From contig NZ_CP080492.1 in assembly GCF_019464495.1 (NCBI RefSeq), positions 3,162,001 through 3,226,000 of the forward strand: a DNA stretch of 64,000 bases. Direction: 5' to 3'. Source of the stretch: Leucobacter luti. Lineage in GTDB: Bacteria; Actinomycetota; Actinomycetes; Actinomycetales; Microbacteriaceae. The notes under the pieces are model-generated. The model searched no databases. It was given only the letters and a program-made list of their open reading frames with translations, and was not told the origin of the DNA. Below, one piece after another: positions 33,621-58,048 of the stretch; within the stretch, counting starts at the first letter, position 1, and each line of letters opens with the position of its first letter. A program made the translations under genes and the position numbers.

Positions 33621-33625
33621 TCGCG

Positions 33626-36457: not shown

Positions 36458-37287
36458 CTGGTTTCCCGCCGTTGCTGACCGCAGAGAACGTGGTCGTCGA
36501 CTACGGCACGAGGCGCCACCCCAACCGCGTGCTGCACGAGGTCTCGCTCGACGTCGGAGCGGGGGAGTGCGTCGGCCTGGTGGGTGAGTCCGGATCGGGG
36601 AAGTCGACGCTGGGGAAGGCAATCCTCGGCCTTGTGCCCGTTGCGTCTGGCCGCATCACGTTCGACGGCCGCGACATTACGCACCTGTCGCGCACTGAGC
36701 GACGTGCGCTCGCCTCAGATATTCAAGTCGTGTTCCAGGATCCCTACGGCTCACTCAACCCGATGCTCACGATCGGGGGCATCCTCGCTGAGCCCCTCTC
36801 GACCGCCGGTGTTGACCGGGCCGCGGCGCGCCGCACGGTTTCGGAGATGCTGGAACGAGTAAACCTCCCAGCGAACGTGATCGATCGTTTCCCGAGTGAA
36901 TTCTCAGGTGGGCAGCGGCAACGGATTGCGATTGCGCGTGCGCTCGTGCGGCGGCCACGGCTCATCATTTGTGATGAGCCGGTGAGCGCGCTCGACCTCA
37001 CCACACAGTCCACGGTGCTCGATCTCCTCATCGACCTGCAGCGCGATACCGGGGTGTCCTACCTCTTCGTATCGCATGATCTCGGGGTTGTGCGGCGCAT
37101 TTGTCACCGTGTTGCGGTGCTGTATCGAGGCAATCTGGTCGAGGTTGGCGACGGTGAACGCGTGACCCGAGACCCCCAGCATCCCTACAGTCAGCGGCTC
37201 CTCGCAGCGTCTCCTGTGGCGGATCCAGCGCTCCAGGCGGGGCGACGCGAAGCTTGGCTTGCGCTGCGAGAGGAGCACTCGGGGTAA
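36454..37287 (+). CDS. ABC importer ATP-binding protein (DppF type)
   Basis: A 277-residue ATPase, second nucleotide-binding subunit of the importer. Walker A GESGSGKSTLGKA, Q loop VFQDPYGSLNP, signature FSGGQRQRIA, Walker B LIICDEPVSALD, C-terminal PQHPYSQRLLAA. Four-base overlap with the fusion gene. The helicase promoter follows within 40 bases with no clear hairpin between. Confidence 0.92.
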   Translation: MTGFPPLLTAENVVVDYGTRRHPNRVLHEVSLDVGAGECVGLVGESGSGKSTLGKAILGLVPVASGRITFDGRDITHLSRTERRALASDIQVVFQDPYGSLNPMLTIGGILAEPLSTAGVDRAAARRTVSEMLERVNLPANVIDRFPSEFSGGQRQRIAIARALVRRPRLIICDEPVSALDLTTQSTVLDLLIDLQRDTGVSYLFVSHDLGVVRRICHRVAVLYRGNLVEVGDGERVTRDPQHPYSQRLLAASPVADPALQAGRREAWLALREEHSG

Positions 37288-42231: not shown

Positions 42232-42352
42232 GGATCCTCCACTTCGAGTCCGGTCAGTAGTTTCAGCGTAAGTGGTCACCACAGCTCTTGGCTTGTCTGC
42301 TGCGGTAGCCCGGTTGTGTTTGCGCGACCAGAAGTCCTGATCATGCGACGCC

Positions 42353-43564: not shown

Positions 43565-44622
43565 CGGCTGAGGATCCGGCGCCACCAGCTGTCACGCGCA
43601 GCGTTGGCAGCTTGCGAGACGATCGCGTCCGGCGAGAATCCGCTGAAGCCGTGGTAAGCGCCCGACCACACGTGAAGCTCGGCCTCCCCGCCCGCTGCCC
43701 AGATCCGGCGCGCGTACGCGATGGTTTCGTCGCGGAAGATCTCAGCGGATCCGACTTCGAGGAACGCCGGGGGAAGCTGTGCGAGGTCAGCGGCCCGCGC
43801 CGGTGCCTGATACGGGTGTACCCGCTCGGTCCCACGATCGGCCCCCAGCATTGCGTCCCACCCAGTGTCGTTGTTGTTGCGATCCCACGCTCCGAGTCCG
43901 TCATATTGCCAGGACGAGACGGTGTCGTTGCGATCGTCAATCATGGGCGTGTTGACCAGCTGCCCGGCAAGTGCCGGTCCGCTGCGATCTCGCGCCATGA
44001 GTGCAATGGCGGCGGTGAGTCCGCCGCCAGCGGACGCACCGGAAACAACGATGCGATCCGGATCGGCACCCAGTTCTGCGGCGTGCGCCGCGAGCCACAC
44101 GAGCGCCGCATAGCAATCTTCAGCGCCCGCGGGCGCTGGATGCTCTGGGGCGAGCCGGTACTCGACGGCGACACCGATCGTGCCGTGGGTCTCAGCCAGG
44201 TCAATGAGCTCGCCAGTGCCGAAGAACCGGGTTCCGAGGACATAGCCGCCGCCGTGGATTCCAAGCACGGCGGGGCGGAGAGCCCCGGCTGGGGCCCCGG
44301 ATCCTTCCCTGCCAGGACACGTGGGAGCCGGATCCAGTGGGCGCACGATCGTCACCTCGATGTCCGGTGCGCCCTGCGGGCCGGGGATCAGGCGATCCTC
44401 CCAGGTGACGGCTCGGCCCTCTGCCTGGCTCGCCATCGCGGGAATCACCGTGCGGAAGTGGTCCCGGTTTGCCAAGATCGTGTGTGCGCGGAGGGGGATG
44501 GACTCCACGAGATCCATGAAGTGTGCGAGCCCCTGCTCCAGCTCAGGGTCGTAGGGCACGGGCACCGGGCGCAGCTCAGGGGCGGCGGCGCGGAAGGGCA
44601 GCGCGTGCGAACGCTCAGTCAT
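43561..44622 (-). CDS. Alpha/beta hydrolase (HSL family), copy 1
   Basis: A 353-residue carboxylesterase of the hormone-sensitive-lipase family: oxyanion HGGGYVLG, nucleophile GASAGGGL, acid residue in FRDETIAYARRIW and His in GAYHGFSGF. The start at 44622 (MTERSHALPF) lies 8 bases inside the preceding gene, so the two overlap. It is a diverged duplicate of the upstream gene; both end with ARDSWxRRI. Short-chain ester or lactone substrates are likely. Confidence 0.9.
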   Translation of the reverse strand: MTERSHALPFRAAAPELRPVPVPYDPELEQGLAHFMDLVESIPLRAHTILANRDHFRTVIPAMASQAEGRAVTWEDRLIPGPQGAPDIEVTIVRPLDPAPTCPGREGSGAPAGALRPAVLGIHGGGYVLGTRFFGTGELIDLAETHGTIGVAVEYRLAPEHPAPAGAEDCYAALVWLAAHAAELGADPDRIVVSGASAGGGLTAAIALMARDRSGPALAGQLVNTPMIDDRNDTVSSWQYDGLGAWDRNNNDTGWDAMLGADRGTERVHPYQAPARAADLAQLPPAFLEVGSAEIFRDETIAYARRIWAAGGEAELHVWSGAYHGFSGFSPDAIVSQAANAARDSWWRRILSR

Positions 44623-45640
44623 GGCTCCCGCCTCCGATGATCCGGCGCAGCCAGGAATCGCGAGCTGCCAGGGCCGCCGTAGTGATCTCGGCAGTTGGAG
44701 CGTACATGTCGAAGCCGTGGCACCCGCCAGCCCAAACGTGGAGCTCCGCCTGTCCTCCAGCGGCCCAGATGCGGCTCGCGTAGTCCGTGTCCTCGTCTCG
44801 GAACATTTCGGCGGCCCCCACCTCGATGAAGGCGGGTGGGAGTCCCGAGAGGTCGTTCGCCCTGCTGGGTGCGGCGTACTCAGGTGCCTGCTCGGAATAC
44901 GCAAGATCTGCACCAAGCACGCAGCGCCACGCCAGGAGGTTCGCGTCACGCTGCCAGGTGCCAATACCGTCGTATTGCAGGCTCGACACCGTCGAATTCG
45001 TGTTGTCGAGCATGGGGCAGAGCAGCAGTTGACCAGCGAGCGTGGGGCCGCCCCGATCCCGCGCCATGAGGGACACTGCGGCAGCAAATCCGCCGCCGGC
45101 ACTGCCGCCCATCACGACGAGGCGTGTGGGGTCACCGCCGATTTCGGCAGCGTGCTCGGCCACCCAGCAGGTGGCTGCATAGTTGTCTTCAACACCGGCT
45201 GGAAATGGATCCTCTGGCGCGAGGCGATACTCGACATTGACGCCGATCACTCCGTGGCGCGCAACGAGATCTGCAACGCGGTCATGCTCCCAGCTGCGGT
45301 GGCCGACGATCATCCCGCCGCCGTGGAAGTTCACGAGGATCGGCAGGGCGACGGGGCTTGATTGCGCGGGCCGGAAGACGGTGAGCTCGAGCTCGGGTGC
45401 GCCGGCCGGACCGGGAATGCGCAGTTCCTCTGCGGTGAGTGCGTGCTGCCGTGCGATCGTGTCGGAGTCAGGGAAGACCGGCCCGCCGCTCCGCATGAGC
45501 GCAAGCGTGTCCTCGCTGAGCGGAGGCTGCGCACTTGCGGCCAGTGCCTCGAGTGCTGGCACCACGTCAGGGTCGAAGGGCGACGGGGGGAGTGCTGGCC
45601 TGCCGAGCGCGACGGGAGGCGTAGGGAGTTGGGTGGGCAT
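44615..45640 (-). CDS. Alpha/beta hydrolase (HSL family), copy 2
   Basis: A 341-residue HSL-type esterase: HGGGMIVG, GGSAGGGF, FRDEDTDYASRIWAAGG, and GGCHGFDMYAP carry the oxyanion hole and Ser-Asp-His triad. Its neighbour downstream is a paralogue of similar layout. It starts 5 bases after the aldo/keto reductase stop, in the same operon. Two esterases with distinct nucleophile surroundings suggest two different ester bonds in the substrate. Confidence 0.9.
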   Translation of the reverse strand: MPTQLPTPPVALGRPALPPSPFDPDVVPALEALAASAQPPLSEDTLALMRSGGPVFPDSDTIARQHALTAEELRIPGPAGAPELELTVFRPAQSSPVALPILVNFHGGGMIVGHRSWEHDRVADLVARHGVIGVNVEYRLAPEDPFPAGVEDNYAATCWVAEHAAEIGGDPTRLVVMGGSAGGGFAAAVSLMARDRGGPTLAGQLLLCPMLDNTNSTVSSLQYDGIGTWQRDANLLAWRCVLGADLAYSEQAPEYAAPSRANDLSGLPPAFIEVGAAEMFRDEDTDYASRIWAAGGQAELHVWAGGCHGFDMYAPTAEITTAALAARDSWLRRIIGGGSHD

Positions 45641-45645
45641 TGTGG

Positions 45646-46611
45646 TTAGGGTCCTTCCGGGTCAACGACGTCACGGTCTGCCCAGAAGGGCTCGACACGC
45701 GCCCGAATCTCGGCAGCGCCCACGCGATTGAGGAGTTCGAGGCTGCCGAGATTCGTCTCCAGCTGCGCCACACTCGACGCGCCAAACAGTGTGGTGGCGG
45801 TTGCCGGGTGGGTGAGCGTAAAGGCAATCGCGAGCTGCGCAGGTGTGCCGCCGAGCTGCTCGGCGAGACTGACGAACCCTGGGACATCATCGATGATGCG
45901 TTGGCGGATCCCCCCTGGATCTCGTCCGACTTCGCGTTCGGTAGAGATCTTTCCGGCGAGATAGCCGCCCTCCATAACGTCAGAAGCCTGCATCGACATG
46001 CCGCGCTCCCAGAGCCTCGCGAACGGGAGCCCGTCGGGGATCGAGCGCCGCGACACGCTGTACTTGAGCTGTGCGATCTCGGGCCCGGGGACTCCCTCTG
46101 ACGCGGCGATATCGAGCAACTCCTGCACGCTCGACGCCGACCAGTTGTTGACTCCCCAGGCTCGGATCAGGCCGTCAGCGCTGAGCTCGGCGAGATTGAG
46201 CACGATGTCCCGGAGCGCGACATCGTCGCGGCGCAAGTCTCCGAGCACCACGAGGTCGGCGTGTTCGGCGCCGACGCGGAACAGTGCGCCGTTGAGCTGG
46301 GAGCGGAACCCGGTGTGCTCATCCCAGCCCTCGAGCCAGAGTTTCTCGGAGAGGAGATACTCATCGCGTGCAACGCCAGCGGCCCGGACGATGGCGGAGA
46401 ACAGGACGTCAGTGAAGGCGGGCGGCGAGCCTGGCATCGCATAGACGCCAACGTCGAACAGGGTGATGCCGCGATCGATCGCGGTGCGCACGAGCTGCAC
46501 GGCGTCTTCGAAGTGCATGCGGTCGTAGATGTGCCAGGACCCGAGCGCGAAGACGGAAGTCTCCAACTCACTGGTGCCGATGCGGCGGCGGGGGACTGGT
46601 GGGTGCGTCAT
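45646..46611 (-). CDS. Divergent aldo/keto reductase, copy 1
   Basis: A 321-residue AKR barrel protein: N-terminal IGTSELETSVFALGSWHIYD, active-site Asp/Tyr in FDVGVYAMP, Lys in LSEKLWLEGW, and late cofactor segment LFGASSVAQLETNLG. The position of the catalytic His (HWPD in most AKRs) reads VVLGDLRRDD, so His is Gly. The same change occurs in the second copy at 50.3 kb. AAAGGA precedes the ATG at 46611. It lies in the Zn-ADH to exporter operon. NAD(P)-dependent redox of a carbonyl or sugar-like substrate is expected. Confidence 0.83.
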   Translation of the reverse strand: MTHPPVPRRRIGTSELETSVFALGSWHIYDRMHFEDAVQLVRTAIDRGITLFDVGVYAMPGSPPAFTDVLFSAIVRAAGVARDEYLLSEKLWLEGWDEHTGFRSQLNGALFRVGAEHADLVVLGDLRRDDVALRDIVLNLAELSADGLIRAWGVNNWSASSVQELLDIAASEGVPGPEIAQLKYSVSRRSIPDGLPFARLWERGMSMQASDVMEGGYLAGKISTEREVGRDPGGIRQRIIDDVPGFVSLAEQLGGTPAQLAIAFTLTHPATATTLFGASSVAQLETNLGSLELLNRVGAAEIRARVEPFWADRDVVDPEGP

Positions 46612-46674
46612 AGGGTGTCCTTTCGGGGTAACACGGGACAACTGGTGGTGAGAGCGAGCGCGGCCGCTGCCGGA

Positions 46675-47790
46675 TTAGCGCCGGGTGAGGCGCGGATCGA
46701 TCACGGCTTTGACCTCGTTGAGCTCGTGCATGTTCATGATCCGGTCCGAGGCGTCGTCCAGACCGCAGGGGGCCGAGAACAACTCGTCCCACGGGAATCG
46801 CTCCGCGAAGGTGCGGAAGAACTCGATGGAGCGGTAGTAGTCGGAGACATCGCCATTGAGTGATCCGACAACGGTGAGCTCTTTGCCCATGATCGCTGAG
46901 AGCGGGAACGGATCGCCGGCCGGTCCGGTCGAGCCAACGATGGCGATTGTGCCGCGTTGCGCAGCCATCGCGACTGCCTCGGGTCCGATGCTTGGGGTGC
47001 CAGCGACGTCGAGCACGAGATCCGCGCCGTGGCCGTCAGTGAGTTCCAGAACGCTGGCGATGGTGGCCTCTGATCCTTCGGTGATGTCGACGGTGTGCGT
47101 CGCGCCGAAGCGCCGCGCGAGATCCAGCCGGACTGCAGGCGCGCCAGCGGTGATGACAGTGCCGGCACCAGAGATACTCGCAACTGCAGTAGCAAAGAGC
47201 CCCAGCGCGCCCGATCCCTGAATCACGACTCGGGATCCAGGCCGTACGCCGCCAGCGCGGTCGAATGCGCGTAGGACGGTTTTTGCCGCGCAGCCTGCTG
47301 CTGACGCCCACGTGTCTGTGACCTCGTCCGGTAGGCGCAGCTTTTGCGCGCCGGGCGTGACATAGGCGTACTCGGAGAGCCCGGCTGTTGCGAACGGGGC
47401 GACATCGGAGCGCTGCAGGAAGCCGTAGCCGCGCTGCGCGCAGGCGACGGGCTGGCGCAGCACGGTGCAGCCGAAGCACTTTCCGCAGACGGACTCAGAC
47501 CAGCCGATCCGGTCGCCGATATTGAGTGGGGAGCCGAGCGCGTCGACCGCACCATCGCCCAGGGCGACGACTTCACCGACCATTTCGTGGCCGAGCACCA
47601 TGGGGAGCATTCCGGGGAACGTCATTTTGCCCGCCCAGATCTCGATGTCGGTGCCGCAGAGGGTCGTGCACGTGATCTGTACGAGCGCGGCACCCGGCTC
47701 AATCTGCTCAGGGAGTGGCAGTTCTTGAAGTTCGAGCGCTGCGCCGTGTTCGGTCAGCACGGCCGCGAGAGTTGAAGTGGGAATCGTCAT
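46675..47790 (-). CDS. Zinc-dependent alcohol dehydrogenase (MDR family)
   Basis: A 371-residue medium-chain dehydrogenase. Catalytic-zinc residues in TTLCGTDIEIW and LGHEMVGEV, four structural-zinc cysteines in ESVCGKCFGC and QPVAC, and cofactor motif GSGALGLFATAVA. First gene of a minus-strand operon (ADH, AKR, two hydrolases, exporter, perhaps ALDH), divergent from an amidohydrolase across a shared operator-like site. With the ALDH it could oxidise an alcohol through aldehyde to acid. Confidence 0.9.
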   Translation of the reverse strand: MTIPTSTLAAVLTEHGAALELQELPLPEQIEPGAALVQITCTTLCGTDIEIWAGKMTFPGMLPMVLGHEMVGEVVALGDGAVDALGSPLNIGDRIGWSESVCGKCFGCTVLRQPVACAQRGYGFLQRSDVAPFATAGLSEYAYVTPGAQKLRLPDEVTDTWASAAGCAAKTVLRAFDRAGGVRPGSRVVIQGSGALGLFATAVASISGAGTVITAGAPAVRLDLARRFGATHTVDITEGSEATIASVLELTDGHGADLVLDVAGTPSIGPEAVAMAAQRGTIAIVGSTGPAGDPFPLSAIMGKELTVVGSLNGDVSDYYRSIEFFRTFAERFPWDELFSAPCGLDDASDRIMNMHELNEVKAVIDPRLTRR

Positions 47791-47851: not shown

Positions 47852-47877
47852 TTTTATTCTACATACGTTGACCATAA
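47852..47877. promoter_or_regulatory. TCTA-N6-TAGA-type operator candidate, ADH/amidohydrolase promoter
   Basis: Left half TTTTATTCTA, spacer CATACG, right half TTGACCATAA, compared with the perfect palindrome at 52.2 kb (TTATTTTCTA/TAGAAAATAA). Lies centrally in a 140-base divergent promoter. On the minus strand TAGAAT could also be the -10 of the alcohol dehydrogenase gene. Confidence 0.55.
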
Positions 47878-47930
47878 GCGTGAAGCTCCAGTCCGGGAGC
47901 CGCCGGTCAGAGGTCCCAACGGAGGGGAAG

Positions 47931-49337
47931 ATGACGGATCCTAAGGTGCACGAGGCGCGCGGCCATGCCGATCTCATCCTGCGCGGAGGTACCGTGCTGA
48001 CAATGGATGACGATGCACGTCGGGCCGAGGGTGTCGCGATCACCGCCGGTCGTATTGTCGCAGTCGGCGACAGCGCCGAGCTGGAACTGTGGTGCGGGCC
48101 GACCACGCGGGTGATCGAGCTTTCGGGGCGAGCAGTGCTCCCCGGCATCAACGACTCGCATCTGCACGGGTCCTGGCTCGGCGCGCGGTGGCCGCACACC
48201 TTCTTCGGGGCGGCAGATCCCGAGGCTGCCGCACAAGTCAGTGGCACGCTCGTGTCGAGCACGGCCGAGCGCCGCGCCGCGATCCAGCGCGCAGGGAAGC
48301 TCCTGACTGAACTCGGAATCACAAGTTACACCGAGCCCGGCCTCGGGCCGGGCGAGGACAGCGGTGAGACCGGCAGTTTCCACAGCGAAGTGATCGAGAT
48401 CTATCGCGAGCTCGCTGCCGCGGGCGAGTTGTCGCAGCGGATCACCGTGCTCGCACTCCACGGCATCCTCGATGGGCCGAGCGACGTCGCAACGGTGGTC
48501 GCCGGGATCCAGAACCATGCCGCTCTCGCCGGTGAAAGCGATCCCGCGTGGCTCGCGATCCCCGGAGTCAAGATATTTGGGGACCTGATTCCGCTCTCGC
48601 GGCAGGCGTGGACCGATCACAGCTACGACGACGGCACACACGGAGACCTGCTCGTTGAAGGGGCAACCATTGCGGAGAAAGCCGAGGGCCTCGCACAGAT
48701 GCTCCGCGCCGCGCACCTCGCGGGGCTGCAAGTGGGAATTCACGCGACCGGAGATCGAACGGTCGAACTCGCCCTCGAGGCATTTGCCGCCGCCGCTGCA
48801 CTGCCTGGCGCCCCCAGCGTTCGCGAGCTGGGGCACGTCATTATTCACGGTGACCTGGCAACGCCCGCCCAGGTAGCGCGCATGGCCGAGATGGGGATCT
48901 GGCTGAATACACAGTCCGGCATTGCGGCGTACGCTGGCGAGTGGCTCACCGGCATGCTCGGGCCGGAGGTGGCGACCAGCGCGTGGCCACTCGGCGCTGC
49001 GCTCGCCGCCGGAGTGCTCGTGCTGTCGTCGGATGCGCCGGTGCTCGACTTCGACTGGCGGCGCGGGATCGCAGCTGCTGAGGCGAGAATCGTGGCGACA
49101 GGTGGTTCAGTTGCTCCCGAAGACATGCGCGCCAGGCTCGAGCAGTTGCTCCGAGCGTACACCTCACTTCCGGCTGCCCAGGATCGGGCGGCCGACTGGA
49201 AGGGGACCGTCACTGCTGGGAAGGTGGCCGATCTCGTCGTACTTGCGCGAGACCCCTTTGAGGTCGGTGCTGCTGGCCTACCTGATGTTGCTGTCGACCT
49301 GACCGTGCTCGACGGACACGTGGTGTTCGAGCGCTAG
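47931..49337 (+). CDS. Amidohydrolase (YtcJ/imidazolonepropionase-like branch)
   Basis: A 468-residue metal-dependent amidohydrolase: N-terminal LILRGGTVLTMDDDARRAEG, metal HxH in PGINDSHLHGSW, the metal-bridging Lys in PGVKIFGDLI, His in VGIHATGDRTV and VIIHGDLA, Asp in LSSDAPVLDFD, and the closing GKVADLVVLARDPFEV. GGAGGGGAAG precedes the ATG at 47931. Enzymes of this branch hydrolyse amides, lactams or esters. It is the only plus-strand gene from this promoter, ended by a hairpin. Confidence 0.88.
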   Translation: MTDPKVHEARGHADLILRGGTVLTMDDDARRAEGVAITAGRIVAVGDSAELELWCGPTTRVIELSGRAVLPGINDSHLHGSWLGARWPHTFFGAADPEAAAQVSGTLVSSTAERRAAIQRAGKLLTELGITSYTEPGLGPGEDSGETGSFHSEVIEIYRELAAAGELSQRITVLALHGILDGPSDVATVVAGIQNHAALAGESDPAWLAIPGVKIFGDLIPLSRQAWTDHSYDDGTHGDLLVEGATIAEKAEGLAQMLRAAHLAGLQVGIHATGDRTVELALEAFAAAAALPGAPSVRELGHVIIHGDLATPAQVARMAEMGIWLNTQSGIAAYAGEWLTGMLGPEVATSAWPLGAALAAGVLVLSSDAPVLDFDWRRGIAAAEARIVATGGSVAPEDMRARLEQLLRAYTSLPAAQDRAADWKGTVTAGKVADLVVLARDPFEVGAAGLPDVAVDLTVLDGHVVFER

Positions 49338-49358
49338 CACGTGCTCGTGAGGGTGAGT

Positions 49359-49391
49359 GCAGTGGGCCAGCGCGCGGCGCCGGCCCACTGC
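49359..49391. terminator. Bidirectional terminator between amidohydrolase and SDR genes
   Basis: 15-base stem GCAGTGGGCCAGCGC / GCGCCGGCCCACTGC with one mismatch and a 3-base loop, in the 70-base gap between convergent stops. Confidence 0.85.
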
Positions 49392-49407
49392 GGGGATTGG
49401 CGGCGGG

Positions 49408-50145
49408 CTACGTGAGAAGCTGGCCTCCGTCGACGGGGAGGCTCACGCCCGTGATGTGTGCGGCTCCCGCACCCGCGAGATAGGCGACCGCGGGGGCGAT
49501 GTCATCGACCCGTGCGAGGCTGCCGAGTGGGATCCGGCTTGCCCACGCTGCGCGCGCGGGGGAACCCTCTGGCATGCCCTGCTCAAGCATTGGGGTGAGC
49601 ACCGGCCCTGGCGCGACGGCGTTCACGCGGATTCCGTGCGGTGCGAGCTCGATCGCTGCCCAGCGGGTCACTGAGTCAACCGCGGCTTTGCTGGACTCGT
49701 ATGCGCCCATGCCGGGCGTCGGCTGGCGCCCCCCGATTGATGAAATATTGACGATCGCGCCGCCGCCGCCTGCCGCGATTCGGTGCCGCGCAAACGCCTG
49801 AATCATCACGAAGGTGCCGAGCACGTTGACCTCGAGGATTGACCGGTAGTCGGCGGGGTCGAGTTCAGTCACTGCGCCGTGTACGGAGAGGATCCCGGCG
49901 TTGTTGACGAGCACATCGACGCCACCGGCTCCCGAGAAGTGGTCGAACGCCGCGGCCACGGCCGCCGGGTCGGTGATGTCGAGCGCTCGTGCCTCTGCGC
50001 CGAGGGCGGTGGCAGCGGCGTTGACTGCGGTTGCGTCACGATCCGCGAGAATAACGTGCTCGCCAGCGGCGATGAATTCGCGGGCGATGCCCTGGCCGAT
50101 ACCGCCGGCCCCGCCGGTGATCAGTACGGTGCGTGGAGTGGTCAC
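49408..50145 (-). CDS. Short-chain dehydrogenase/reductase
   Basis: A 245-residue classical SDR: cofactor motif TGGAGGIGQG, VNNAG, catalytic Ser in VNISSIGG and Tyr/Lys in GAYESSKAAVD, C-terminal SLPVDGGQ. The GTG at 50145 is chosen because AAAGGAG sits at correct spacing; the frame is open 15 codons further. Divergent from the second AKR across an AT-rich operator-like region. NAD(P)-dependent alcohol/ketone interconversion; substrate unknown. Confidence 0.92.
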   Translation of the reverse strand: MTTPRTVLITGGAGGIGQGIAREFIAAGEHVILADRDATAVNAAATALGAEARALDITDPAAVAAAFDHFSGAGGVDVLVNNAGILSVHGAVTELDPADYRSILEVNVLGTFVMIQAFARHRIAAGGGGAIVNISSIGGRQPTPGMGAYESSKAAVDSVTRWAAIELAPHGIRVNAVAPGPVLTPMLEQGMPEGSPARAAWASRIPLGSLARVDDIAPAVAYLAGAGAAHITGVSLPVDGGQLLT

Positions 50146-50203
50146 GGTGACTCCTTTGTCGAGGGTGAAGTCGACGCGAGGCGCCGACACTGGAGTGAAC
50201 TCT

Positions 50204-50231
50204 TCGTATATTATACGATTGTAGAAAATAA
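50204..50231. promoter_or_regulatory. Operator candidate, SDR/AKR divergent promoter
   Basis: Contains the perfect 15-base palindrome TCGTATA-T-TATACGA (50204-50218) and, overlapping it, GTATATTATA-N6-TAGAAAATAA, whose right half is identical to the right arm of the 52.2 kb palindrome. Confidence 0.6.
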
Positions 50232-50285
50232 ACGAGCACGCGTGTGTCGCGGCGCAATGCGTGCGGCGCCTGCAAGGAGGCAGAC

Positions 50286-51278
50286 ATGACGTTCACCGGC
50301 CACATCCCCCAGCGACAACTCGGTCCGGGCGGTCCCGAAGTGCCGGTGTTCGCGCTCGGGTCCTGGAACATCTGGGACCGGATGGAGGCGCGCGATCGGC
50401 GCGCGCTCATGGAGCGGGCGGTCGAGACTGGATCTGCATTCTTCGACGTGGCCTACTACAACATGGGGCCGCACGCGGAGGCCTCGCGCACAGATCTGCT
50501 GTTCGGGGAGACGCTCCGAGAGCTGGGGCTTGCGCGCAGCGACTATCAACTCTGCGGCAAGCTCTGGTTGTGGGAGTACCCGGCGACAGGCTTCGCGGAT
50601 CAGATGCGCGTCTCGCTCGACCGCATTGGAGCTGGCCGCGGCGGTCCAGAGTCCTTCGAGACCGTTGTGGTCGGGGATTTCATGGGAGAAGTGGATATCG
50701 CGCAGGTCGTGCGAGATGTGCAAGCCGAAATCACTCGCGGCAGTTTCGCAAGCTGGGGGGTCAATAACTGGCCAGCCGCTGCGCTGCGGCTCGCCCTCGA
50801 CACTGCTGCGGAGGAGGGGCTCACTCCGCCCAGCTTTGCGCAGCTCAAGTACGGCCTCGTGCGGCGAAGTATGGCCGAGGGGGAGTTCTACGGCAAGTGG
50901 TTCGCCGATGGCACGCTCGCACTCCAGGCATCGGACGCATTCGAGGGCGGGATTCTTGTGGGCAAGCTCGCCCCCCAGCGCAAGATCGGCGCGGATGTCG
51001 GGGGGATTCGCGAGCGGATCGTCGCGGCGTATCCGGAGGTGCTGCGCATTGCCGAGGAATTCGGGGCGACCCCCGCTCAGCTCGGGATCGCGTTCTGTCT
51101 CGCACACCCGGCAACCGCAAACGTCCTCTTCGGGGCCTCGAGCGTCACTCAACTCGAAGATAATCTCGGGGCGATTGCACTCCTGGAGCGAATCGGCGCC
51201 GACGCGATCCGCACGGCGACCGCCGGGCTCTGGCTGGACCGCGAAGTGCGGGCCGACGGAGTGTGGGCTCCGGAGTAG
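50286..51278 (+). CDS. Divergent aldo/keto reductase, copy 2
   Basis: A 330-residue AKR barrel related to the one at 45.6 kb: VFALGSWNIWDRME, FFDVAYYNMG, CGKLWLWEYP and LFGASSVTQLEDNLG. The catalytic-His position reads VVVGDFMGEVD, again Gly instead of His, so both copies belong to one unusual subfamily. CAAGGAGGC precedes the ATG at 50286; an in-frame GTG 14 codons upstream has no such site. Its promoter is shared with the SDR. Confidence 0.83.
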   Translation: MTFTGHIPQRQLGPGGPEVPVFALGSWNIWDRMEARDRRALMERAVETGSAFFDVAYYNMGPHAEASRTDLLFGETLRELGLARSDYQLCGKLWLWEYPATGFADQMRVSLDRIGAGRGGPESFETVVVGDFMGEVDIAQVVRDVQAEITRGSFASWGVNNWPAAALRLALDTAAEEGLTPPSFAQLKYGLVRRSMAEGEFYGKWFADGTLALQASDAFEGGILVGKLAPQRKIGADVGGIRERIVAAYPEVLRIAEEFGATPAQLGIAFCLAHPATANVLFGASSVTQLEDNLGAIALLERIGADAIRTATAGLWLDREVRADGVWAPE

Positions 51279-51316
51279 GCGCTCGCTCGGGTGCGCGCTC
51301 CGGCGTGCGCTTGGGC

Positions 51317-51391
51317 TCACGCAGGAAATCCGAGCTCGTGCAGGATGAAATCCACGATTCCATCCTGCACGAGCTCGGATTTCCTGCGTGA
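51317..51391. terminator. 31-base perfect inverted repeat between convergent genes
   Basis: Arms 51317-51347 and 51361-51391 are perfect complements with a 13-base loop. The core of each arm is GAAATCCGAGCTCGTGCAGG or its complement. It fills most of the gap between the convergent AKR and hydrolase genes and would end both transcripts; neither side has a U tract. Confidence 0.8.
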
Positions 51392-51407
51392 ACTCGGCGG
51401 CTGTGCG

Positions 51408-52127
51408 CTACGCGGCGAGATAGTCGATTGCGCAGGATCGGAATTCGGCGCTGTCAAGGGCGCCGCGGTGATCTCCTGGCACGTGGGTCAGTGAGCCGTG
51501 CGGGAGCGCGGCGAGCAGCGCCTCGATGCCCTGCGTCATTGGGTCTGAGCTGCCGGCAACGAGCAGTGTCGGCACACGAGGTGCCTGTTGCTCTGGCGCA
51601 AACGGCTCGGATGCGAGGCCGGGGATCAGTCGCGCGAGCGACGCGGTGTCCCTGCCTGGTGCGGAGATCATGCCTGCCATCATGCCGGCGAGCGGGTGTG
51701 CGGGGGTGCCGCCGCGCAGTGCCTCGGCGAGCTCGGTGGCATCTACGGCGGCAAACGGCTCGAACGGGCTCGCACCGCCCAGTACGAGTCGATGCACGCG
51801 GTCGCTGTGCCGCGGGAGGTCCCATGCCAGTCTGGCGCCGAGCGAGTATCCCACGACGTCGATGGGTCCCGCGGGGGTGATGGTGTCAATCGCAGACGCA
51901 ATTGCATCGAGCACCGCGCTCGTGGTGGCCTCGGCTGCGCTGGTGAGTGCCGGGCTCTCGCCGTGGCCCGGCAGATCGAGTGCGATGACTTCGCGCCCGG
52001 CCCGGTGCAGTGATTCGATCCAGCCGGTGGCGATGAAGTCTTCCGCCGCGGAGGAGGCGAAGCCGTGCAGGAGGATGACCGGAGGAGCTGTCGTGTCGGT
52101 GGGGAAGTGGTGTGTGGCGAGTGGCAT
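51408..52127 (-). CDS. Alpha/beta-fold hydrolase
   Basis: A 239-residue hydrolase of the lid-containing alpha/beta family: VILLHGFASSA (oxyanion), nucleophile VGYSLGARLAW, acid VAGSSDPMT and His in HVPGDHRGAL. Esterase, lactonase or C-C hydrolase activity are all possible. Divergent from the methyltransferase-like gene across the best operator of the regulon. AGGAGG precedes the ATG. Confidence 0.87.
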   Translation of the reverse strand: MPLATHHFPTDTTAPPVILLHGFASSAAEDFIATGWIESLHRAGREVIALDLPGHGESPALTSAAEATTSAVLDAIASAIDTITPAGPIDVVGYSLGARLAWDLPRHSDRVHRLVLGGASPFEPFAAVDATELAEALRGGTPAHPLAGMMAGMISAPGRDTASLARLIPGLASEPFAPEQQAPRVPTLLVAGSSDPMTQGIEALLAALPHGSLTHVPGDHRGALDSAEFRSCAIDYLAA

Positions 52128-52184
52128 GAGGAGGACCTTTCGGCAGTGAAATGGTGTGTTCTCGGGGCTGGATCGATCCCGAAT

Positions 52185-52210
52185 TTATTTTCTATGCTAG
52201 TAGAAAATAA
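52185..52210. promoter_or_regulatory. Perfect TetR-type operator candidate
   Basis: TTATTTTCTA - TGCTAG - TAGAAAATAA: perfect 10-base arms with a 6-base spacer, strikingly AT-rich in this genome, in the divergent promoter of the hydrolase and methyltransferase-like genes. It is the reference copy of the shared motif. Confidence 0.75.
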
Positions 52211-52229
52211 GCGTGGCACGGCTGGACAT

Positions 52230-52255
52230 TATTTGTCTACGTCTGTAGAGTTTCG
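52230..52255. promoter_or_regulatory. Second TCTA-N6-TAGA site, methyltransferase-like gene promoter
   Basis: TATTTGTCTA - CGTCTG - TAGAGTTTCG keeps the TCTA-N6-TAGA core and spacing, 45 bases from the perfect copy and about 65 bases before the methyltransferase-like start. Confidence 0.55.
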
Positions 52256-52320
52256 ACAGGCCACACCCGGACACCGCCGTCCCGAGCCTCGCGGACGGCC
52301 CACACGCAAAGGATCAGTTC

Positions 52321-53295
52321 ATGACCGCAACTCCCGACCGCATCGTCGATATCGCTATCGGATTCATGGGGGCCAAGCAGCTCGCAGCAGCAAGCCGGAT
52401 CGGCCTGTTCGCCGCGCTTGCGGGCGGACCGCAGACGGCCGCCGAGCTCGCGGCCAAGACCGCACACGCAGAGCGCCAGGTGCGCACCCTTGCCGACGCA
52501 ATGAACGCGCTTGGCTTGCTGGAGCGCGAAGCAGGCCGCTACTCGCTCGCCGCGGACTCCGCGAAGTACCTCGCCGGCACCGGCGACATCGACCTGACCC
52601 CGTTCCTTTCCTTCCTCGGCGATATTAGCTACCGCCAGTGGCTCGGCTACGACCACACCGTCGACTCCGACGCGGCCGGCACACTCGAACTCGACGAGGC
52701 CGGCTGGGCGGATTTCATGGCCGGTGTCATGACCTACAATGCACTGCACGCAGAGCAGTTCGGGGCCGCATTCGACTTCTCAGGATTCCGCAACGCCCTC
52801 GATTTCGGGGGTCTTGCCGCTGGCTTCTCGCTCGCTGCGATGCAGCAGAATGACGAGCTCACCACGCGCTTCGTCTACGCGCCAGGCTTCGCAGACTCGA
52901 TCGCGGAGGCAGCCTCGGCCGCCGGGCTCGCGGACCGCGTGAGCGTCGAAGAGGGAGACACTGAATCCACCGCGCCGGGCGGGGAGCACGACCTTGTCTT
53001 GCTGACTCACGTGCTGCACCGCTTCGATGCGGAGCAGAATCGCGCCATTCTTTCCGCCTCGCGGGGAGCCGCTGCTCCCGGCGCCACCCTGATGCTGCTT
53101 GATTTCTTCCTCGATCAGGACGGCACGCAGCGCGCAATTGACGCGCTGCACGCCGGTGAATACTTCAATATCGACGGCACTGTGGTGTACCCGATTGAAG
53201 AGGTCGAGGGCTGGCTTGCGGAGACTGGCTGGGCGGTTGATCGCCTCGTCGAGCTGCCCGGCAGCCCGCGTGTGCTCGTTGCCACCGCAGTGTAA
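52321..53295 (+). CDS. O-methyltransferase homologue with degraded SAM-binding site
   Basis: A 324-residue relative of the hydroxyindole/small-molecule O-methyltransferases. The N-terminal dimerisation winged helix (about 15-95, QTAAELAAKT, LERAGRYSLA-like) and the late VLHRFDAEQNRAIL with the catalytic-type His are present. The SAM loop, normally DVGGGxG, reads DFGGLAAG, and the acidic ribose-binding strand (normally LDLP) reads FVYAPGF. Methyl transfer is therefore doubtful. It heads a three-gene plus-strand unit with two phosphotriesterase homologues. It could be a scaffold, a ligand-binding protein, or an enzyme using another chemistry. Confidence 0.78.
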   Translation: MTATPDRIVDIAIGFMGAKQLAAASRIGLFAALAGGPQTAAELAAKTAHAERQVRTLADAMNALGLLEREAGRYSLAADSAKYLAGTGDIDLTPFLSFLGDISYRQWLGYDHTVDSDAAGTLELDEAGWADFMAGVMTYNALHAEQFGAAFDFSGFRNALDFGGLAAGFSLAAMQQNDELTTRFVYAPGFADSIAEAASAAGLADRVSVEEGDTESTAPGGEHDLVLLTHVLHRFDAEQNRAILSASRGAAAPGATLMLLDFFLDQDGTQRAIDALHAGEYFNIDGTVVYPIEEVEGWLAETGWAVDRLVELPGSPRVLVATAV

Positions 53296-53336
53296 CTGCG
53301 ACACGCGAGTCGAGCGGTCGAGGAGGGGTGGAGCGA

Positions 53337-54371
53337 GTGAGTGAGCGCGCGTCGGTGATCGAGACGGTGACCGGACCCCTCCCAGTCACCGCGGCGGGGC
53401 CGGTACTTGCGGCGGAGGTGCTGCTGCAGGCGGCACCTCCGCTCGCCGGGAACACTGGGCGGCCAGCGAGCGAGGTCGCGTTCGCGCGCGAGCCGGTCGC
53501 GATTGGCAACCTGGGCCGTCTCCTGCTCGGAGCGCCCAACCGTGATGATCGCACGCTCGCCGAGGCGGACGCTGCTCACGCCTTGGGGGTCTACGCCGCC
53601 GCGGTGCACGCGTCATCTGAATCTGGTCCGCACGCTGAGAGTGCCGCGCAGCGCGCGCAACCGGTGGTCGTGGTGCTCGATGCCGCGACCGTGGAGGCGC
53701 AAGATCCCACTCGCACCTCTGCAGCACTGCGGCGCCTGAGCGCTGCCTCCGGCGTCGCGATTGTGCGCCGGACTGCGATCCGAGTAAGTGCCACCCCAGC
53801 CGACTTCAGGGCCGCAGCCCGGGCGGCAAGACTCGCAGGCGAGGGCCTCATGCTCTCGCCTGGAGCGGAGCTCGCGGAGGCCGCAGCAGCCGTGGCGCGA
53901 TTGGAGGCCGAGGGCCTTCCCGGAAAACGCATCACGCTGACGGGGGCCCAGCGACTCATCGGCAGGCGCCGCGAGGGGGCACCCAACGCGGGCTTCGGCA
54001 CGGGAGACGGCGCAGGCGTGGATCCGGATCGACTTGAGGGGCTGATCGCCCTGGCACAGAGCTCGGGGATCACGCTCTGCTTTGACGAGCTCGGCCGGAT
54101 ACCGACGGTGCGCACGGTGGTCTCCGACCACGATATTGCCGTCGCGATCCTCCGCTGTGCTGCGCGTGGCCTCGGCGAGCATGTCACGCTCAGCTGCGGC
54201 ATCCGCGCAAAACACCAGCTCACTGCCTTTGGGGGTAATGGACTCGAGTTCATCACTCAGCAGTTCCTGCCGTACCTTGGCATGCTCGGCGCCGACGCCG
54301 CGCTGCGCGCCGCAATCGGTGGGGAGACGGCGCTGCGCTTTCTGCAGCGCAGTGAAGGGAAGGCAGTATGA
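53337..54371 (+). CDS. Phosphotriesterase-family pseudoenzyme (metal ligands lost)
   Basis: A 344-residue protein that aligns along its length with phosphotriesterase-like lactonases: IETVTGPLPVTAAGPVLAAE matches the usual start, and FGGNGLEFITQQFLPYLGML the usual end. Every expected ligand is replaced: HxH reads AAEVLL, the third His GLMLSPG, the fourth ITLTGAQ, the Asp strand LSCGIRAK. No catalysis by the normal mechanism is possible. GTG at 53337 is preferred (AGGAGG ten bases upstream); a GTG at 53328 is too close to it. It overlaps the intact homologue by four bases (ATGA), suggesting a partner subunit. Confidence 0.8.
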   Translation: MSERASVIETVTGPLPVTAAGPVLAAEVLLQAAPPLAGNTGRPASEVAFAREPVAIGNLGRLLLGAPNRDDRTLAEADAAHALGVYAAAVHASSESGPHAESAAQRAQPVVVVLDAATVEAQDPTRTSAALRRLSAASGVAIVRRTAIRVSATPADFRAAARAARLAGEGLMLSPGAELAEAAAAVARLEAEGLPGKRITLTGAQRLIGRRREGAPNAGFGTGDGAGVDPDRLEGLIALAQSSGITLCFDELGRIPTVRTVVSDHDIAVAILRCAARGLGEHVTLSCGIRAKHQLTAFGGNGLEFITQQFLPYLGMLGADAALRAAIGGETALRFLQRSEGKAV

Positions 54372-55497
54372 CGGTACGGGATGAGCGTGTGGAGCAGGGC
54401 GGGCGTGCGGTGGCGATCCCGCTCGATGAGATCGATATTCCGGATCGCACCGGCGCCGTGCAGACGGTCTGTGGCACGGTGCGGCCTGAAGATCTCGGCA
54501 CGACTCTCATGCACGAGCACGTGTTCCTCGACATTCGCAGGCCGGCCCACTCACCGAACCCGCGCCGGGGCGAGTGGGACCCTCCTGCGCAGGAACCGCT
54601 CAGCCTCACAACGCTCGCGGCAGTGCGGCGGGGAGGCCCAGCGCGGAGAACGACATTCTTGGTGACGAGGCCGTGCTGCTGGACGAGGTGGGGGACTTTG
54701 TGCGGCAGGGCGGCGGCACGATCGTCGAAGTCACGCCGAGCGGCGTGGGGCGCGACGCCGCCGCGCTCGCGAGACTCAGTCGTGCTTCCGGGCTGCGCAT
54801 CGTGATGGGGAGTGGGTGGTACCAGAAAGACCTGCACCCGCTGGGTTTCGCTGAGCGCTCGATCGAAGAACTCACCGCACAGATCGTCACCGATCTTGTT
54901 GTGGGGGTCGACGGCACCGGGATTCGGGCCGGAATTATCGGAGAGGTTGGGGCTGAGGGGGATCCGGTCCACCCGGAGGAGATGCGCAGTGTGCGTGCCG
55001 CCGGACGTGCTGCGGCGCTCACCGGAGCTCCGATCACGCTGCACATGGGCGGCTTCGGGGAGGAGAAGCTGCGCGTGCTCGATGCGCTCGAAGCAGAGGG
55101 GGCTGATCCTGCAGGTGTGGTGTTCGGTCATGCTGGCACGATCGCGGATGATATGTCATTGGCCAGGCGGTTGCTGGCGCGCGGGGTCTCTGTTGAAGCC
55201 GATTTCTTAGGCACAACCGGAAGCCCGTGGGGCACACTGTTCCCGTTCACCGACCGCGAGGTGGCGCGTGGTTTCGCTGAGCTGGTTGCGGACGGCTGGG
55301 GTGAGCAGCTCGTCCTCGGGGGAGATGTGTGCCAGCGTGTGCAGCTGCGGCGCTGGGGCGGGCACGGCTACGGCTATATTGTCGATCACTTCCTGCCGAC
55401 GCTCGCTGAGTTTGGAGTCAGCGCAGCGGAGCTGGATCAGATCATGATCCACACCCCGGCGCGGATCCTCGCGTTTAGAGCTCCGGGCCGACGCTAA
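54368..55497 (+). pseudogene. Phosphotriesterase-like lactonase/hydrolase, frameshifted
   Basis: Binuclear-metal hydrolase with all ligands visible: LMHEHVFLD, Glu bridge in GIIGEVGAEG, His in ITLHMGG and VFGHAGT, Asp in LGGDVCQR, and the ending PARILAF. The frame from ATG 54368 is lost after LTTLAAVRR; similarity resumes one frame over at AENDILGDEAVLLDE. A fifth G in the GGGG run at 54630-54633 would give a continuous 376-residue protein of normal length (VRRGRPSAENDI). Either a real mutation or a homopolymer error. Family members hydrolyse lactones or phosphotriesters. Translationally coupled to the pseudoenzyme. Confidence 0.85.
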
Positions 55498-55579
55498 CGC
55501 GCAGAGCACTCCAGATGATCCGTGTGATCCGACAGTGGTGTGTTGGGTGGGCGGTGGGGCGCCGTGTGGGCAGTGGAAG

Positions 55580-56176
55580 TTAGTGTGCGCTGCGCAGTCG
55601 GGCGATAAAGTCGGTGACCTGCGCATCGAGCACATCGGCGTTCAAGTGATCGGGGCTTACTACTCGCACCACAGTTGCGCCGATATTGAGCATGATGATC
55701 TCGTCGACGAGCTGGTCGTCAGGGGTACTCGTGAGGATATCGCCGTCGGCCCTGCCCTCTGCGAGATACTGCCGGTAGCCGGCCTTCCAAGTGTCGAGGT
55801 GCTCGTCGTAGCCGCCGTGGAGCTCTGTGCTGAACGCGCAACGCTCCCAGAACGAAAGCAGCACGCGCGCCGCAGTAGCGTCTTCCTGCTCGATCGGCAG
55901 GGTGAAGCGCATGAACATTTCCAGCGCTTCGATCCCACGCTTGCCAGCGGTGTGGTTGGCCAGGCGCTCGCCCAGGCTGTTGAGTGAGCGCTCGTACGCA
56001 CCCTTGATGATCTGGTCCTTGCCGGAGAAGTAGTGCTTGAGCGCGCCGTTGGCGAAGCCAGCGCGAGCAGCGATTTCGCGCATCGTTGCGGCCTCGATGC
56101 CTCCCTCAACGATCAGCTGCCAGGTGACATCGACGACTTCTTTGCGTCGCTGATCATGATCTATGACTTTGGGCAT
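55580..56176 (-). CDS. TetR-family regulator, probable controller of the 47-56 kb regulon
   Basis: A 198-residue TetR/BetI-type repressor: HTH over residues about 8-55 (VIDHDQRRKEVVDVTWQLIV, then IAARAGFANGALKHYFSGKD), helical effector domain. The start at 56176 (MPKVIDHD) matches the start of the related TetR at 60 kb (MPKIVDHDERR). Divergent from the GMC oxidoreductase with a TAGA-type motif between, so it is probably autoregulated; the same motif at neighbouring promoters makes it the leading candidate regulator of the block. Confidence 0.88.
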   Translation of the reverse strand: MPKVIDHDQRRKEVVDVTWQLIVEGGIEAATMREIAARAGFANGALKHYFSGKDQIIKGAYERSLNSLGERLANHTAGKRGIEALEMFMRFTLPIEQEDATAARVLLSFWERCAFSTELHGGYDEHLDTWKAGYRQYLAEGRADGDILTSTPDDQLVDEIIMLNIGATVVRVVSPDHLNADVLDAQVTDFIARLRSAH

Positions 56177-56199
56177 CGCACGTCCTTGGGGCCGGAAAT

Positions 56200-56225
56200 C
56201 TATTATCCTCCATTGTAGACGAAAA
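56200..56225. promoter_or_regulatory. TAGA-type operator candidate, TetR/GMC oxidoreductase promoter
   Basis: CTATTATCCT - CCATTG - TAGACGAAAA; GTAGACGAAA is shared exactly with 31911-31920. It lies 24 bases before the TetR start, consistent with autoregulation. The left arm is weak. Confidence 0.5.
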
Positions 56226-56389: not shown

Positions 56390-58048
56390 ATGTCGGATCA
56401 GTCGAGCACTCAGCCGCGACCCGAGAGCGTGATTGTGATCGGGGCAGGATCCGCGGGATCAGTCGTAGCACGCCGCCTCGCAGACGCGGGCGTGACGGTC
56501 ACCATCCTCGAAGCGGGTGGTGAAGACACGAACCCCGCGATCCATGACCTCAGCCGTATGGGCGAGCTGTGGCACAGCGCAGATGACTGGGACTACTTCA
56601 CCACGCCGCAGCCGGGAGCCGCTGGCCGCCGTTTGCACCTGCCGCGGGGCAAAGTGCTCGGCGGATCGCACGCGCTGAACGCGATGATCTGGGTGCGTTG
56701 CTCCCCGAAAGACTTCGACCATTGGGCCAGCCTGGGTAACGATGGCTGGGCCTGGGAGGACGTGCTCCCCGTATACCGCGAATTGGAGCGCTACTCCGGA
56801 GGCGCTTCTGCGCTGCGCGGCGGCGACGGACTGCTCGATGTCAGCGACGACTATGCGCTTTCGCCGATCCAGCAGTCGATTCTTGACGCCGGCGTGCAGG
56901 AGGGGCTCGAGCACAACGCCGATTACAACGGCGAGGTGCTCGACGGGATCTCGCAGCAGCAGATTACAGTGCGTGATGGGGAGCGGCTGAGCACCTACCG
57001 CGCGTATCTCAAACCGGTACGGGATCGGGTCACCGTCGAGACCGGCTGCCGGGTGGAGGAGCTGATCTTCGCGAATGCGGATCCCGGTGATCTCGCTGAT
57101 GCAGACAGTGCCGGTGATCCCGCTGATGCAGGCGGTGCCGATGGTGCCGCGTCTGACACCGGTGCCGCAGCTGGCACGCCCCGCGTGATCGGCGTGCGAG
57201 TCACGCAGGACGGTGCGACCCGCGAGCTGTTCGCCGACGAGATAGTGCTCGCCGCAGGGGCGATCGACTCACCGAGGGTGCTGCTGCGCTCCGGGATCGG
57301 ACCGGCCGAAGAGCTGCGGGCGGTGGGGATCGAATCTCGGGTTCATCTCCCCGGCGTCGGGAAGAACCTCCACGACCACCTGCTCGCCCCGGTGATCTTT
57401 GCGACAGAGAAGCCGGTCGGTCCGCCACAGTCCGGTGTTTCGGTGACGCAGACACACCTGTTCTGGAAGAGTCGCCCTGAGCTGGACCGCCCGGATACGC
57501 AGCCCATCAACTTCTCGGTGCCGATGTATGGGGACACGCTTGAGCCGCGCGGCGACGATGGCTTCTCGTTCCTCGCAGGCCTCGTAACGCCACGGGCGCG
57601 CGGCGAGATCACGCTATCGGGCCCGGGGGTCGACGATCCGATCCAGATCGATCTTGACGCGCTCGGGCACGATGACGATGTCGCGTCACTTGTGGCTTCG
57701 GTGCGGCAGTGCCGCAGCATTGGGCGGCAGGCCGCGCTCGCTGCGAGCCCGGCTGACGGCGGCTGGGGTGCGACTGAGGTGTACCCCGGCCCAGAAGTGG
57801 GCGACGGCGACGATCCGGTCGACTATGTCCGATCCACGGTCGCGACCTACCACCACCAGGTTGGTACCTGCAAGATGGGGGTGGATGAGCTCGCGGTGGT
57901 CTCACCGCGGCTCGCAGTTCACGGCGTTGACGGCTTGCGGGTGATCGATGCCTCGATCATGCCGCGTGTGACCACTGGAAACACGAACGCGCCCTCCGTG
58001 CTCATCGGCGAGCTCGGCGCACGATTCGTGCTTGCGGGGGAGCGCTAA
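56390..58048 (+). CDS. GMC-family FAD oxidoreductase (choline dehydrogenase-like)
   Basis: A 552-residue flavoprotein: dinucleotide motif VIVIGAGSAGSVVARRLAD, signatures RGKVLGGSHALNAMIWVR and AAGAIDSPRVLLRSGIG, catalytic His in ATYHHQVGTCKMG and Asn in TTGNTNAPSVL. It oxidises an alcohol with FAD. GAGGAG precedes the ATG at 56390. Residues about 230-265 form an Asp/Ala/Gly-rich insertion made of 9-residue repeats in the FAD domain. Its stop overlaps that of the convergent CPBP gene. It fits an alcohol oxidation step in the same regulon. Confidence 0.93.
   Translation: MSDQSSTQPRPESVIVIGAGSAGSVVARRLADAGVTVTILEAGGEDTNPAIHDLSRMGELWHSADDWDYFTTPQPGAAGRRLHLPRGKVLGGSHALNAMIWVRCSPKDFDHWASLGNDGWAWEDVLPVYRELERYSGGASALRGGDGLLDVSDDYALSPIQQSILDAGVQEGLEHNADYNGEVLDGISQQQITVRDGERLSTYRAYLKPVRDRVTVETGCRVEELIFANADPGDLADADSAGDPADAGGADGAASDTGAAAGTPRVIGVRVTQDGATRELFADEIVLAAGAIDSPRVLLRSGIGPAEELRAVGIESRVHLPGVGKNLHDHLLAPVIFATEKPVGPPQSGVSVTQTHLFWKSRPELDRPDTQPINFSVPMYGDTLEPRGDDGFSFLAGLVTPRARGEITLSGPGVDDPIQIDLDALGHDDDVASLVASVRQCRSIGRQAALAASPADGGWGATEVYPGPEVGDGDDPVDYVRSTVATYHHQVGTCKMGVDELAVVSPRLAVHGVDGLRVIDASIMPRVTTGNTNAPSVLIGELGARFVLAGER
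57084..57137 (+). repeat. 27-base tandem repeat in the GMC oxidoreductase gene
   Basis: Two adjacent 27-base units differ at three positions and encode GDLADADSA and GDPADAGGA. A third, more degenerate unit (DGAASDTGA) follows. In frame. Confidence 0.85.

Follow-up and report, generated by a model that had tools for sequence, protein, structure and literature searches.

Seven copies of one 26-bp imperfect palindrome lie in the window, a 64,000-nucleotide stretch of the Leucobacter luti chromosome (positions 3162001-3226000 of 3,408,875 bases), and we are confident that they are the operators of a single local TetR-type repressor, the predicted product of 55580-56176 (TetR1). The copies start at 31896, 31929, 47852, 50206, 52185, 52230, and 56200 (aligned on GTAGA), and their consensus, refined by adding the copies of relatives, is TTWTWTTCTAC-N4-GTAGAAWAWAA, with an 11-4-11 layout. 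Divergent gene pairs flank all seven, which are spread over five intergenic regions of a ~25-kb stretch (31.9-56.2 kb). From these sites we infer a regulon that would comprise an Opp-type importer operon (SBP5-OppF), a presumed operon running from ADH to ALDH, the amidohydrolase AmidoH, an SDR oxidoreductase, the aldo/keto reductase-like protein AKR2, the alpha/beta hydrolase AbhC, an OMT-fold protein followed by the phosphotriesterase-type PTEa and PTEb, TetR1 itself, and a GMC oxidoreductase, with an HpaH-like hydratase perhaps as a further member.

The individual copies were scored with a matrix built from the seven window sites only and fixed before the scans of relatives. The divergent region between the HpaH-like gene and SBP5 carries a weaker copy, O1 (31896..31921, score 22.9), also present in stretches L052, L141, L142, and L143, together with O2 (31929..31954, 36.4) upstream of the Opp importer operon. 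O3 (47852..47877, 34.4) occupies the ADH/amidohydrolase divergent promoter and includes TAGAAT, a -10-like hexamer for ADH, while O4 (50206..50231, 36.2), in the SDR/AKR2 divergent promoter, includes TATAAT, -10-like for SDR. Two copies separate AbhC from the OMT-fold gene: O5 (52185..52210, 34.8) on the AbhC side and, 45 bp from it, O6 (52230..52255, 23.4) on the OMT side. The last, O7 (56200..56225, 25.9), lies in the TetR1/GMC divergent promoter. An earlier note on this DNA had tied a 47-56 kb block of unrelated enzymes together by shared strings in its promoters, and every string it quoted was found at its position. TAGAAAATAA occurs three times in the window (50222-50231 and 52201-52210 on the plus strand, 52185-52194 on the minus strand), GTAGAATAAAAC twice (31944, plus; 47851-47862, minus), and GTAGACGAAA twice (31911 and 56215). 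Its description of 52185-52210 as a perfect 10-6-10 palindrome was confirmed. The proposed common core TCTA-N6-TAGA is present in strict form only at 52191 and 52236; the shared palindrome itself holds, and is better described as 11-4-11 than as 10-6-10. The block also stands as far as it was claimed, but it reaches back to 31.9 kb, which adds the Opp-type importer and perhaps the HpaH promoter.

Pattern scans of the chromosome revealed that the motif is essentially absent elsewhere, in line with the earlier argument that such AT-rich repeats at promoters are unlikely to arise by chance. The pattern GTAGANNAWAA has seven chromosomal matches, five of them inside the block (reversed control, six). 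With at most one mismatch, WNWTCNACNNNNGTAGANNAWA yields 10 rows corresponding to six sites, of which five belong to the block; at exactly two mismatches, 13 rows cover the two remaining window sites and 11 places elsewhere, and with 14 control rows at two mismatches or fewer, the looser matches outside the block are at control level. Binomial values of 1e-10 and 4e-10 are descriptive and post hoc, since the patterns were drawn from these very sites. The sixth site at one mismatch or fewer, G000:696959, was rejected as a member, with a matrix score below 13 in its stretch (L177). A long strict pattern was likewise abandoned in favor of shorter ones: it caught only two of the seven sites, with four rows and no match outside the window (control 0). 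In leave-one-out scoring of the window, six of the seven sites outrank every non-site, and 52230 is beaten by one. The best non-sites with the full matrix, 60723 (18.0) and 60656 (11.7), read TCACC-N4-GGCGA and TCACC-N4-GGTGA and lie between the gene of a TetR paralogue, TetR2 (59984-60592, 32% identical to TetR1), and an NMT1-type transporter gene. As a separate observation, identical 22-mers at two mismatches occur at G000:C1 640844, 1264838, and 1870773, perhaps as part of a repeated element.

TetR1 orthologues of at least 70% identity are encoded in 25 of 54 Leucobacter genomes, the source genome included, and one more was found at 50% in G046. The 25 regions around them, source window included (1.12 Mb), were scanned with the window-only matrix, and a site scoring at least 20 within 300 bp upstream of a gene start was counted, with a site common to a divergent pair counted for both genes; the denominators leave out genomes in which the gene was unmatched, its match failed the cut-off for identity or start, or the upstream part was missing from the fetched stretch. 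Such a site was found upstream of SBP5 in 20/20, ADH in 22/22, AmidoH in 20/20, SDR in 23/23, AKR2 in 23/23, AbhC in 22/22, and OMT in 23/23 regions, and upstream of the HpaH-like gene in 16/19. None of 14 control genes has one in the 25 regions, nor does any reach 15 (FAA_RraA 0/17, GntR 0/14, HpaE 0/14, HpaD 0/9, DEAD helicase 0/17; OppB, OppC_D, and OppF 0/20 each; ALDH 0/21; MFS 0/20; AbhA, AbhB, AKR1, and PTEb 0/21 each), although most control genes sit inside operons, so that their upstream regions are not all true promoters. The comparison with related genomes that the earlier note had suggested thus places the element at the same genes in relatives and at none of the controls. The spacing between O5 and O6 is 45-46 bp in most Leucobacter regions, and it is longer by about one helical turn in G047 (55 bp) and in G180, from another genus (56 bp); in G012, G024, and G051, a single site scoring at least 13 is seen between AbhC and OMT.

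Nearly all strong matches in these regions (129 of the 132 scoring at least 20) fall within 300 bp of the start of a regulon or TetR2-locus gene. The three exceptions all read TTCTCC-N4-GTAGAA. In G020 and G049 the match precedes the gene of a third TetR paralogue, with the helix region AGYAHSAFARYF or AGFTHSAFARYF; in G037 it is at the very start of a long open reading frame (ORF) containing a 28% amidohydrolase match. This third paralogue, with hybrid operators, is found in some relatives.

Beyond the genus, a search of 349 Microbacteriaceae genomes identified a close TetR1 (E 1e-45 or better) in 10, of which seven are outside Leucobacter, and site-bearing clusters were found in records of Agromyces and Leifsonia as well as in G099, G180, and G276. 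The sites and gene families also recur in Amycolatopsis, Saccharothrix, and Actinokineospora, near TetR1 orthologues that in Pseudonocardiales share 40-48% identity. Two layouts were distinguished across Pseudonocardiales and two Microbacteriaceae records. Where TetR1 is close to AKR2, a site of at least 24 precedes AKR2 in 11/11 Pseudonocardiales loci, beside AmidoH where that gene was matched. In the other layout, Opp genes followed by TetR1 (23 loci), AbhC was matched in 18; 16 of these have a site of at least 17 between TetR1 and AbhC, and in two (L115, L118) the site separates AbhC from OMT, while none of the five loci of this layout without an AbhC match has a site of at least 12. Two Amycolatopsis and two Saccharothrix stretches contain a compact cluster, ADH | AmidoH, SDR | AKR2, OMT, SBP5-OppB-OppC_D-OppF-TetR1-AbhC, with sites scoring 19-38 before ADH/AmidoH, SDR, OMT, SBP5, and AbhC; AKR2 was unmatched in both Saccharothrix clusters (L162, L164).

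TetR1 is the best candidate reader of these sites, and very probably the actual one. O7 lies between TetR1 and GMC, in keeping with the earlier remark that a TetR gene adjoins one of the shared sites, and the protein combines an N-terminal helix-turn-helix domain (PF00440, 47.9 bits against a cut-off of 24) with a C-terminal ligand domain (PF13977, 38.4 against 27). TetR N-termini were gathered from the fetched loci with a sequence pattern, and in 79 distinct TetR1-type N-termini the recognition region AGFANGALK[HR]YF is conserved, as AGFANGALKHYF in 68 and AGFANGALKRYF in 11. Among the 54 Leucobacter genomes, TetR1 and AKR2 occur together in 24, TetR1 alone in one (G037), AKR2 alone in one (G043), and neither in 28 (Fisher p 4.3e-13, uncorrected for shared ancestry). 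Likewise uncorrected, scans with the pattern at one mismatch or fewer yield 127 rows from the 25 TetR1-bearing genomes and 14 from the other 29, and the control gives 16 in all 54; seven of the 14 are single matches in seven genomes, and the other seven belong to the fragmented G043, G045, and G046. Together, the genome pattern scans and the promoters of relatives support the earlier proposal that a shared operator unites these genes into one regulon and that the TetR is the candidate regulator.

The most serious alternative is that the operators are real but read by another regulator, for instance TetR2, a paralogue of the TetR3 type, or the GntR encoded in the adjacent homoprotocatechuate cluster. 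TetR2 resembles TetR1 in sequence, its operators share the same layout and supply the next-best matrix matches in the window, and TetR1 can occur without the core cluster, as in Klugiella and G037. However, TetR2 has a different recognition region, AGYAHGAIARYF (13 distinct N-termini), and conserved TCACC-N4-GGTGA-type sites of its own, and no TetR2 match was found in eight 20-kb Pseudonocardiales stretches (L159-L166) that carry TetR1 orthologues together with sites. In G002 and G011 the best matches are TetR2-like, and the pattern rows number one and zero, respectively. The palindrome associated with the GntR, ATCGTATACGAT, differs from the operator and has only two perfect matches in the whole genome, both at homoprotocatechuate genes (window 29950-29961 and 31847-31858); it is probably the operator of the nearby GntR, which would form a separate two-site regulon. 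Taken together, a reader other than TetR1 is improbable. Around TetR2 itself, paired operators TCACC-N4-GG(T/C)GA (window 60656-60748) lie beside the NMT1-type ABC transporter and are conserved in many Leucobacter. Other diverged TetRs were seen as well: one in G017 (32% identity, helix AGYANGALKYYF) near two GTAGA-type sites, and another in L168 (33%, helix AGIAAGALWHSF). The former, a TetR1-like gene, is near two tandem site-like palindromes flanked by a second SBP5 and a relative of AbhB (L176:9874), a possible duplicated sub-regulon. Two further candidates were rejected because no cluster gene adjoins them: a common site-like palindrome in G036:C14 and G037:C7 (21.7) and a site in G017 at L158:9831 (30.3).

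A second alternative holds that the shared element is no more than part of the promoter, with the -10 and -35 boxes of a single sigma factor in an AT-rich arrangement. The right half-site indeed holds TAGAAT in 22/22 ADH and 18/20 SBP5 promoters and TATAAT in 23/23 SDR promoters, at a fixed place within the site, and a promoter consensus scan of 47700-52400 identified four promoter-like sites (0.5 expected), all four of which overlap operators. O3 has TTCACG-17-TAGAAT for ADH, O4 one directed towards AKR2, and O6 two, TGGACA-17-TAGAGT for OMT and another on the opposite strand. The same scan found none at O5 or for SDR. The earlier note had itself allowed that the common part might be only a -10 box, and one half-site is often such a hexamer, but the other is equally conserved, including a TCNAC with no evident promoter role; moreover, the element is at background level away from these promoters by pattern search and missing from the other upstream regions tested, the controls among them, and a TAGAAT at 37319, before the helicase gene, lacks the palindrome. 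An explanation by promoter structure is therefore very unlikely. Least credible of all is that the likeness reflects general conservation of syntenic DNA, or chance in intergenic sequence rich in AT: synteny among the Leucobacter regions means that their sites are not independent, but mean pairwise identity is 0.92 for ADH, 0.91 for AKR2, 0.89 for SBP5, 0.80 for OMT, 0.78 for AbhC, and 0.80 for TetR1 sites against 0.30-0.56 in their flanks (a comparison that favors the sites, which were selected by matrix score, those of TetR1 only from the 21 regions scoring at least 15), and in Pseudonocardiales the same element stands between differently arranged genes.

Several observations nevertheless weigh against assigning all seven sites to TetR1 as a repressor. 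Its own promoter has the most degenerate site, with a score of at least 20 in 14/25 regions, at least 15 in 21/25, and below 15 in 4/25, and four Agromyces and several Leifsonia loci have a TetR1 promoter without a site of at least 12. The GMC upstream region reaches 20 in only 10/21. Three of the 19 HpaH upstream regions lack a site, which makes control of the homoprotocatechuate operon the weakest claim of membership. In G037, TetR1 adjoins homoprotocatechuate genes, but AKR2 is absent from the genome, no ADH, SDR, AbhC, or OMT match was found in 60 kb, and the HpaH upstream region has no site. Conversely, G043 (540 contigs, fragmented) has AKR2 and its sites, and no TetR1 orthologue was found there. 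A Klugiella TetR1 orthologue (53%) has the same helix, yet no cluster gene or site is near it (L103; L155 over 20 kb). Paralogous TetR genes are close by. Finally, the overlap with -10-like elements is the sole feature that argues for repression rather than activation.

With these reservations, the operator probably covers the spacer and -10, in agreement with steric repression, and because the sites overlap -10-like boxes, they are judged likely to mediate local repression that a pathway ligand lifts. TetR1 dimers would bind TCTAC-N4-GTAGA and block RNA polymerase, as the site would overlie the spacer and -10 in one divergent promoter or in both, and TetR1 would weakly control its own promoter. 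Ligand-induced release of the operator is a general property of the TetR family; here, a pathway compound would bind the C-terminal domain and release TetR1. De-repression would then jointly turn on the importer, the ADH-AKR-esterase-exporter-ALDH operon, the amidohydrolase, SDR, AKR2, AbhC, OMT with the PTEs, and GMC. The outcome would be uptake and a peripheral breakdown route, which in Leucobacter may feed the adjacent homoprotocatechuate meta-cleavage genes.

TetR-family pathway-specific repressors are typically encoded by a single gene inside the target cluster, with palindromic operators over divergent promoters and a site at their own promoter, and the candidate regulon has a similar layout, although the site at the TetR1 promoter is strong in only part of the relatives. 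TetR1 resembles the choline-responsive repressor BetI in its best NCBIfam match (NF001978, TIGR03384), its "BetI-type" TetR_C_6 domain, and the divergent choline-dehydrogenase-like GMC gene. Identification as BetI was rejected, with scores far below the cut-offs (62.8 vs 118 and 58.2 vs 201.3 bits), and the GMC protein is also below those for choline dehydrogenase. The closest solved sequence, PDB 2nx4 (E 3.3e-34, residues 1-192), is labelled merely as a TetR family regulator. A local TetR-type regulon is thus a known kind of switch, while this importer-plus-enzymes regulon is apparently new. Among the papers listed in searches of open-licence literature (in one of them, 10 of 411), none evidently deals, by its title or abstract, with this regulon, its operator and targets, though subscription papers and regulatory databases may differ.

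A homoprotocatechuate pathway is very likely encoded next to the regulon, at 24.8-31.8 kb, since products of the genes there pass curated equivalog cut-offs (HpaD 435.3/321.4, HpaE 640.8/638.35, HpaH 356.4/351.5). Unlike the regulon, this meta-cleavage cluster has its own GntR (FCD) gene and the ATCGTATACGAT palindromes. A study of fly-larva gut microbiomes (PMC13188918) does not, in its accessible part, link homoprotocatechuate degradation to a Leucobacter regulator. A reasonable guess is import of the substrate followed by hydrolysis and oxidation, which in Leucobacter perhaps lead down to homoprotocatechuate; an ester, lactone, or alcohol as the substrate class is a guess. Homoprotocatechuate genes had no match in the larger Amycolatopsis and Saccharothrix stretches, which argues for a core pathway independent of homoprotocatechuate. 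On balance, we lean towards an undescribed actinobacterial catabolic pathway common to Microbacteriaceae and Pseudonocardiales, with a core of Opp-type importer, ADH, amidohydrolase, SDR, AKR-like protein, alpha/beta hydrolase, and an OMT-fold protein that has lost much of the SAM motif and maybe has other chemistry, beside paralogous TetRs whose operators (GTAGA, GGTGA, hybrid) would have diverged stepwise with their recognition helices. The regulon would make about twenty generically annotated genes one testable unit with a ready sensor, in which the ligand of TetR1 would be a clue to the substrate. Comparative support for the operator is unusually strong, and the paralogous repressors, each with its own form of operator, offer a natural series for the study of specificity evolution.

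As for the genes themselves, TetR1 (55580..56176, minus strand, 198 aa) matches Pfam TetR_N and TetR_C_6 above cut-off. The Opp-type importer operon (32079..37287, plus) comprises SBP family 5 (SBP5, 32079-33620) and OppB (33708-34649), both by Pfam, the fused permease-ATPase OppC_D (34646-36457), named by sequence and synteny, and OppF (36454-37287), by NCBIfam. On the minus strand, the HpaH-like hydratase (31037..31822; TIGR02312) is the first gene of the homoprotocatechuate cluster. Also on the minus strand, the presumed ADH to ALDH operon (40819..47790), proposed from common strand and close spacing, encodes, by Pfam/NCBIfam, ADH (46675-47790), AKR1 (45646-46641), AbhB (44615-45640), AbhA (43561-~44595), a Bcr/CflA-type MFS protein (42353-43585), and ALDH (40819-42363). 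Pfam matches likewise identify AmidoH (Amidohydro_3; 47931..49337, plus), SDR (49408..50145, minus), AKR2 (50286..51278, plus), AbhC (51408..52127, minus), and GMC (56390..58048, plus; match on ORF 56264-58048, with the ATG at 56390 read directly).

The OMT-fold protein (52321..53295, plus) has a Pfam Methyltransf_2 match, and an alignment of 33 sequences revealed a reduced SAM motif I of which little beyond LDFGG is kept; it may not be a methyltransferase. Its HRF and DGT stretches are well conserved. The following PTEa (53328-54371, plus) has no Pfam match and only a weak NCBIfam phosphotriesterase-type match, and PTEb (ORF from 54574, to 55497, plus) belongs to the phosphotriesterase family. 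In comparison with homologues in G020, G028, and G005, frame changes are seen in PTEb (~54630-54660) and in an HpcH-like aldolase gene (~30470), and they are either real or assembly errors. Between the convergent AKR2 and AbhC genes, a 36-nt inverted repeat at 51317-51391 (97% complementary, 3-nt loop) is perhaps a two-way terminator.

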